DNA from: Pyrinomonadaceae bacterium
GTDB lineage: Bacteria > Acidobacteriota > Blastocatellia > Pyrinomonadales > Pyrinomonadaceae
DNA: 64,000 nt
Direction of reading: 5' to 3'
Assembly: GCA_025054715.1 (NCBI GenBank)
Contig: JANWYH010000003.1
Location: 60,781-124,780, forward strand
The translations under genes and the position numbers were made by a program. This document shows, piece after piece, positions 25,051 to 25,288 of the stretch (position 1 is its first letter; every line of letters starts with the position of its first letter). The notes below the pieces were generated by a model, which did no database searches, was not told where the DNA came from, and saw only the letters and a list, made by a program, of their open reading frames with translations.

Positions 25051-25137
25051 CACCTAACAAAATTTTACTAAATCCGCACGATTCGTAACAGCCAAAATTT
25101 AATCATTATCTTTTTACCGAAAAAATATCAACCTAGC

Positions 25138-25166
25138 TTGACAAGCGTGATTTTTTCTTATAGTAT
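25138..25166 (+). promoter_or_regulatory. Strong sigma-70 promoter for predicted small RNA
   Basis: Consensus TTGACA (25138-25143), a 17-base spacer and TAGTAT (25161-25166). A divergent minus-strand -35 TTGATA (25126-25131), with a GATAAT/TAATGA -10, points to the MerR/B12 gene, so the two -35 boxes are only 6 bases apart. Confidence 0.6.
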
Positions 25167-25172
25167 AAAAAT

Positions 25173-25262
25173 CGCACAAACCGCTCAACCTTTGTGCAAA
25201 AGAACGAGCAAGGGAAGGTTAGTAAACAAAAAGTCGTTACCCTTTCTGGTAACGACTTTTTT
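25173..25262 (+). ncRNA. Predicted orphan small RNA, about 90 nt
   Basis: The start is inferred 7 bases after the -10 box and the end is the T run of a strong terminator. A 5' hairpin is formed by GCACAAA (25174-25180) and TTTGTGC (25191-25197) with a 10-base loop. The loop GCTC (25183-25186) is complementary to GAGC (25206-25209), and AACCTT (25187-25192) to AAGGTT (25215-25220), allowing a pseudoknot or alternative fold. No convincing ORF with a ribosome site is present. The next plus-strand gene is 1.5 kb away, so it is not an ordinary leader. It resembles no RNA family I recognise. Confidence 0.55.
25228..25262 (+). terminator. Rho-independent terminator of the small RNA
   Basis: AAAAAGTCGTTACC (25228-25241), loop ctttct, GGTAACGACTTTTTT (25248-25262): a stem of up to 14 pairs ending in a T run. 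The 5' A run makes it potentially bidirectional, so it may also serve the minus-strand Clp-like gene that ends at 25289. Confidence 0.8.
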
Positions 25263-25288
25263 ATTTGGGAAAGACTATTTTCAGGTTT

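Follow-up and report, generated by a model that had tools for sequence, protein, structure and literature searches.

Regulons under CarH/LitR photoreceptors have been described in Thermus, Myxococcus and Pseudomonas, and the locus reported here shares with them a regulator with a MerR-like HTH and B12-binding domains, a repeat operator over target promoters and over the regulator's own promoter, and targets of the light-response type. In contrast to these regulons, the divergent output is here a predicted non-coding RNA. Known CarH operators consist of 11-bp repeats of the form nAnnTnnACAn (PMC8156234), a pattern that was not found here, and a TGTACA-N12-TGTACA operator has also been described (PMC9758184), whereas the recurring site at our locus is a 9-bp repeat, CGCWCAAAN. 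The closest solved relative of the regulator is CtMerR (8JBS/8JBT), which was shown to form an AdoCbl-dependent tetramer in the dark and monomers in the light, the motifs GxxW, EH, GxxH and GxxxP being the light signature of AdoCbl photoreceptors (PMC11796333). Our literature search found no link between a CarH/LitR photoreceptor and a small RNA under its control. The sponge RNAs CsrB, RsmY and RsmZ carry a repeated ribosome-binding-site-like motif, the copy number of which varies between species. The RNA described below may resemble them in its motif, which is repeated in some relatives, and differs from them in that the motif is GGGNAGG without an obligatory GGA and that CsrA is missing from the carriers tested.

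The window, by which we mean the whole 64-kb stretch of DNA that was analyzed, belongs to a genome of 2.45 Mb (G000). A sequence-only reading of this stretch had proposed an orphan small RNA that diverges from a CarH-type regulator gene, and this arrangement is supported by its conservation in four genera, by repetition of an internal motif, by covariation in the terminator and by a common putative operator of direct repeats (Table 1). The sequence data give good support to a conserved unit for an orphan RNA, placed under what is probably an operator of the B12 photoreceptor.

Table 1. Features of the locus, with positions in the window.
Feature	Position	Strand	Remark
CarH/LitR-type regulator, MerR-like HTH and B12-binding domains, 301 aa	24145..25050	-	
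Predicted carH promoter TGTTAC-N17-TAAAAT	25062..25090	-	alignment with relatives having the -35 inside the repeat
Sigma-70 promoter of the orphan RNA, TTGACA-N17-TAGTAT	25138..25166	+	in relatives, too, ahead of the repeat
Predicted non-coding RNA, about 90 nt	25173..25264	+	90.8 bits with a covariance model trained in part on the window
CGCACAAACCGCTCAA, putative operator of two 9-bp direct repeats, at the predicted +1	25173..25188	+	same place in relatives
5' hairpin GCACAAA/TTTGTGC	25174..25197	+	window and G001 only
AACGAGCAAGGGAAGG, ribosome-binding-site-like motif without start codon	25203..25218	+	18 copies in 11 RNAs
Near-symmetric intrinsic terminator with a 14-bp stem	25228..25262	+	compensatory changes in relatives
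Convergent AAA+ protein, 410 aa	25289..26521	-	similarity confined to the second ClpB ATPase domain

The regulator scores above the Pfam cut-offs for HTH_17/MerR and B12-binding_2 and below that for B12-binding (24.3 of 32.1 bits). It carries all four AdoCbl light signature motifs (G130..W133, E143 H144, G178..H181 and G203..P207), the residues of which it shares with CtMerR. Among solved structures, 8JBS is closest with an E value of 1.7e-48, compared with 5.5e-11 for Thermus CarH. Against the NCBIfam CarH equivalog NF052513 the protein reaches 76 bits with a cut-off of 400, and we therefore regard it as CarH-like and not as a CarH equivalog.

Both the promoter and the intrinsic terminator recognized earlier are present. 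The promoter (TTGACA at 25138-25143, TAGTAT at 25161-25166, spacer 17) scores 10/12, and the terminator arms AAAAAGTCGTTACC and GGTAACGACTTTTT form a perfect 14-bp stem at 25228-25261, followed by a T run. When both strands of the window were scanned under strict conditions (exact TTGACA, spacer of 16-18, TAnnnT, and within 150 nt a perfectly paired stem of 11 bp or more with a T run), this promoter-terminator pair was the only one. In agreement with the earlier reading, the unit contains no ORF with a plausible start codon and the gene beyond it is convergent. The 92-nt RNA folds with a z of -4.3, mostly due to the terminator. Rfam gave no family match in the window, and such matches as there were here lay far below the gathering scores. 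We consider it very probable that the RNA of about 90 nt is transcribed.

The unit lies divergent from a carH-like gene in 10 assembled loci from four genera of Pyrinomonadaceae (Acidobacteriota), which were drawn from 22 orthologous loci and a search of 119 genomes of the family, 35 of them with the regulator; the motif-bearing RNAs belong to the window, G001, G006, G032, G027, G018, G060, G062, G063 and G064. A DNA search of 60 relatives matched the 5' part of the RNA and the motif in several genomes, and the order of promoter, repeat, motif and terminator with a divergent carH-like gene is common to them. An eleventh copy, in G070, was found by covariance search at a contig edge with its neighbor cut off. 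It scored 45 bits and the RNA of L145 36 bits, both being outside the model; the model was built from five of the sequences, the scores of which prove nothing. In G073 the RNA is longer, about 270 nt, and shows no clear motif. The unit is missing from roughly one third of the examined carH-like loci, and in some other carH-like loci it is FAS1 or another gene that is driven from this promoter slot. In a midpoint-rooted tree of the regulators, with low support inside the RNA clade and several gains or losses required, the RNA is confined to an inner clade, scattered among loci with FAS1 or without the unit, and the outer branches hold FAS1 and small membrane proteins. From this distribution the operator-bearing promoter looks older than the RNA.

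The consensus CGCWCAAAN occurs twice with 9-bp spacing and begins at the predicted +1 in all units; an exact copy of CGCACAAACCGCTCAA is found only once in this genome. The repeat is also present over the carH promoter in most relatives. In this genome a one-mismatch operator lies upstream of CTTGAC at a PilZ-like gene with a PilZ match below the Pfam cut-off (L174, G000:C23:47324), an arrangement seen in many relatives. There, a distance of 8-12 bp separates the repeat from the downstream -35 of PilZ-like genes and likewise of two microbial rhodopsin genes (L246 and L278, just 5' of the -35). Genes for RibA and FAS1 have it at their +1. As judged by eye, the carH repeat and that of the target vary in concert in distant loci. 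Its presence over the promoter of carH and next to genes for PilZ, RibA, FAS1 and rhodopsin suggests that the repeat is probably the operator of the CarH-type regulator.

The carH promoter itself has to be placed differently than before. It had been proposed that the -35 of carH, TTGATA, lies 6 bases from that of the RNA, so that one tetramer would cover both boxes. TTGATA scores 9/12, is one of 8 promoter-like sites compared with 6.6 ± 3.2 in shuffled sequences, and has no counterpart in G001; the relatives use a site embedded in the operator. We rejected it as probably wrong. In at least 14 relatives the carH -35 is contained in the repeat (TTGNNC-N17/18-TAnnnT), and in the window a degenerate operator copy at 25075-25090 is located within the predicted carH promoter. 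This aligned promoter is about 50 bp away from the -35 of the RNA promoter, which does not support an overlap of the two -35 boxes under one tetramer.

Covariation of the stems among relatives was seen for the terminator, in which 5 base pairs have changed on both sides among five sequences, a small set, and the 5' helix shows no double changes among the same five. The 7-bp 5' hairpin of the sequence-only reading does exist in the window, where 25174-25180 pair with 25191-25197, and is longer in the sister G001, but it is not kept in other genera. For want of double changes we discarded it as a conserved RNA structure, and a role as the functional element is not supported. The proposed pairing of its loop with downstream sequence is likewise not supported as a general feature. 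Conservation of the 5' sequence is better explained by the putative DNA operator than by an RNA hairpin, because the operator occurs outside the RNAs too. In the RNA of L129 (3600-3750, reverse strand) we observed a pair of similar hairpins, CCTCTTAGCGAGG and CCTCTTAACGAGG, and a copy of the motif follows each of them.

The motif GARCAAGGGNAG was found in 18 copies with at most one mismatch in 11 RNAs (window, L111, L112, L114, L115, L118, L120, L121, L122, L129 and L145), compared with 0.13 expected from dinucleotide shuffles. It is present in nine of the 11; L115 has a two-mismatch copy and L118 none. For AACGARCAAGGGNAGG the script counted 0-5 copies per RNA, with one in the window, and about five were seen by eye in L145. 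A related string stands 3-9 bases before an ATG at 11 places and at none for the reversed pattern. Such start-codon sites occur in ten genomes, nine of them with the regulator, a link that shared ancestry may explain. Mechanical classification of the motif contexts gave 24 start-codon, 20 terminator, 4 both, 27 long open frames and 19 other, some of the start-codon assignments probably being due to chance. Furthermore, across the family unrelated genes have AACGARCAAGGGNAGG at their 3' ends, directly 5' of an intrinsic terminator (among them L305:1534, L308, L309, L310, L012:1501, L230 and L232), and these include genes of genomes in which no carH-like gene was detected.

In this genome the full 16-base motif occurs only once at up to one mismatch. 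A scan with the core 15-mer and up to two mismatches gave 31 matches, compared with 20 for the reversed control. By eye, most of the matches lie within genes, and no obvious ribosome-binding site was among the 30 that were read. Therefore, no decoy partner is visible in this genome. A comparison with the 16S anti-SD matched no 3' end of 16S in this assembly, and the SRPBCC orthologue was dropped as a target here, as it is cut at a contig end and its start region is missing. CsrA (PF02599) was detected in four of 60 genomes and in none of G000, G001, G006, G018, G027 and G032; a CsrA sponge was rejected, canonical CsrA being absent from this genome and the other carriers tested.

The most likely reading is a dark-repressed, light-released non-coding RNA, both its transcription and its light control being deduced from sequence. 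Leaving the decoy step aside, we put the probability of a non-coding RNA under the control of the CarH-type regulator at roughly 0.6. Control of the RNA by this regulator seems quite likely, and its release by light fairly likely. In the dark, the AdoCbl-bound regulator, presumably as a tetramer, would sit on the 9-bp repeat at the +1 of the RNA and block its synthesis, and would also block carH from the related repeat over its own promoter. In the light, the cobalt-carbon bond would be broken, the regulator would leave the DNA and the RNA would be made. The RNA may then act via the AACGARCAAGGGNAGG element, which elsewhere stands just upstream of start codons. As the motif is used there as a ribosome-binding site, our best guess is a decoy for whatever recognizes those sites, some protein or an antisense RNA, and we put forward such an action through the motif only tentatively. 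The complete chain, in which a B12 photoreceptor would control an RNA with one to five motifs that titrates a translational regulator as a CsrA-independent sponge, with the motif also before terminators family-wide, is doubtful.

We also regard it as rather unlikely that the RNA is an ordinary trans-acting small RNA whose 5' end or G-rich motif pairs with C-rich stretches of mRNAs, with no decoy involved. Size, the strong terminator and an accessible motif are typical of such RNAs and the 5' sequence is highly conserved, but this conservation is explained by the operator. Moreover, the motif is the same string that is used at start codons, and within one mismatch this genome contains no complement of it apart from the locus itself. 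Another explanation is a relic leader, in which the promoter would originally have served a gene such as FAS1; after loss of the gene the operator and the ribosome-binding site would have been left in front of a terminator. This would fit the relatives in which FAS1, small membrane proteins or RibA are driven from this slot, the FAS1 leaders with a similar motif before the ATG (L113, L116) and the position of the FAS1 and membrane-protein versions outside the RNA-holding clade. However, the motif has been multiplied to 2-5 copies without any ORF, the terminator covaries and the unit persists among regulators that are only about 50-70% identical, which makes a relic improbable.

The terminator might further be an attenuator within a regulated leader, since several relatives have a downstream gene on the same strand (rpiB, a membrane protein). 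We consider this very improbable, as the next gene is convergent in the window and in the sister genus member and the downstream gene varies among lineages. The symmetric terminator, whose stem ends 27 bases from the stop of the convergent AAA+ gene, could also serve that gene. That it serves this gene only, the promoter being a chance match, is hardly credible: promoter, operator, motif and terminator stay together in relatives without the convergent gene, and the promoter-terminator pairing is unique in 64 kb.

If the light-released RNA acts as a decoy, B12-based light sensing would affect translation and not only transcription. In a phylum that has been little studied, the repeated RNA element of 16 bases, in the absence of CsrA, would then give a clear and testable way towards a new RNA-binding regulator. 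The putative 9-bp operator in addition yields a predicted regulon with rhodopsin, RibA, PilZ and FAS1 genes. As a separate observation on repeated elements, G101 and G105, which are not among the listed regulator carriers, contain 12 and 7 copies of CGCACAAANCGCACA-type repeats, some of them as three in tandem.
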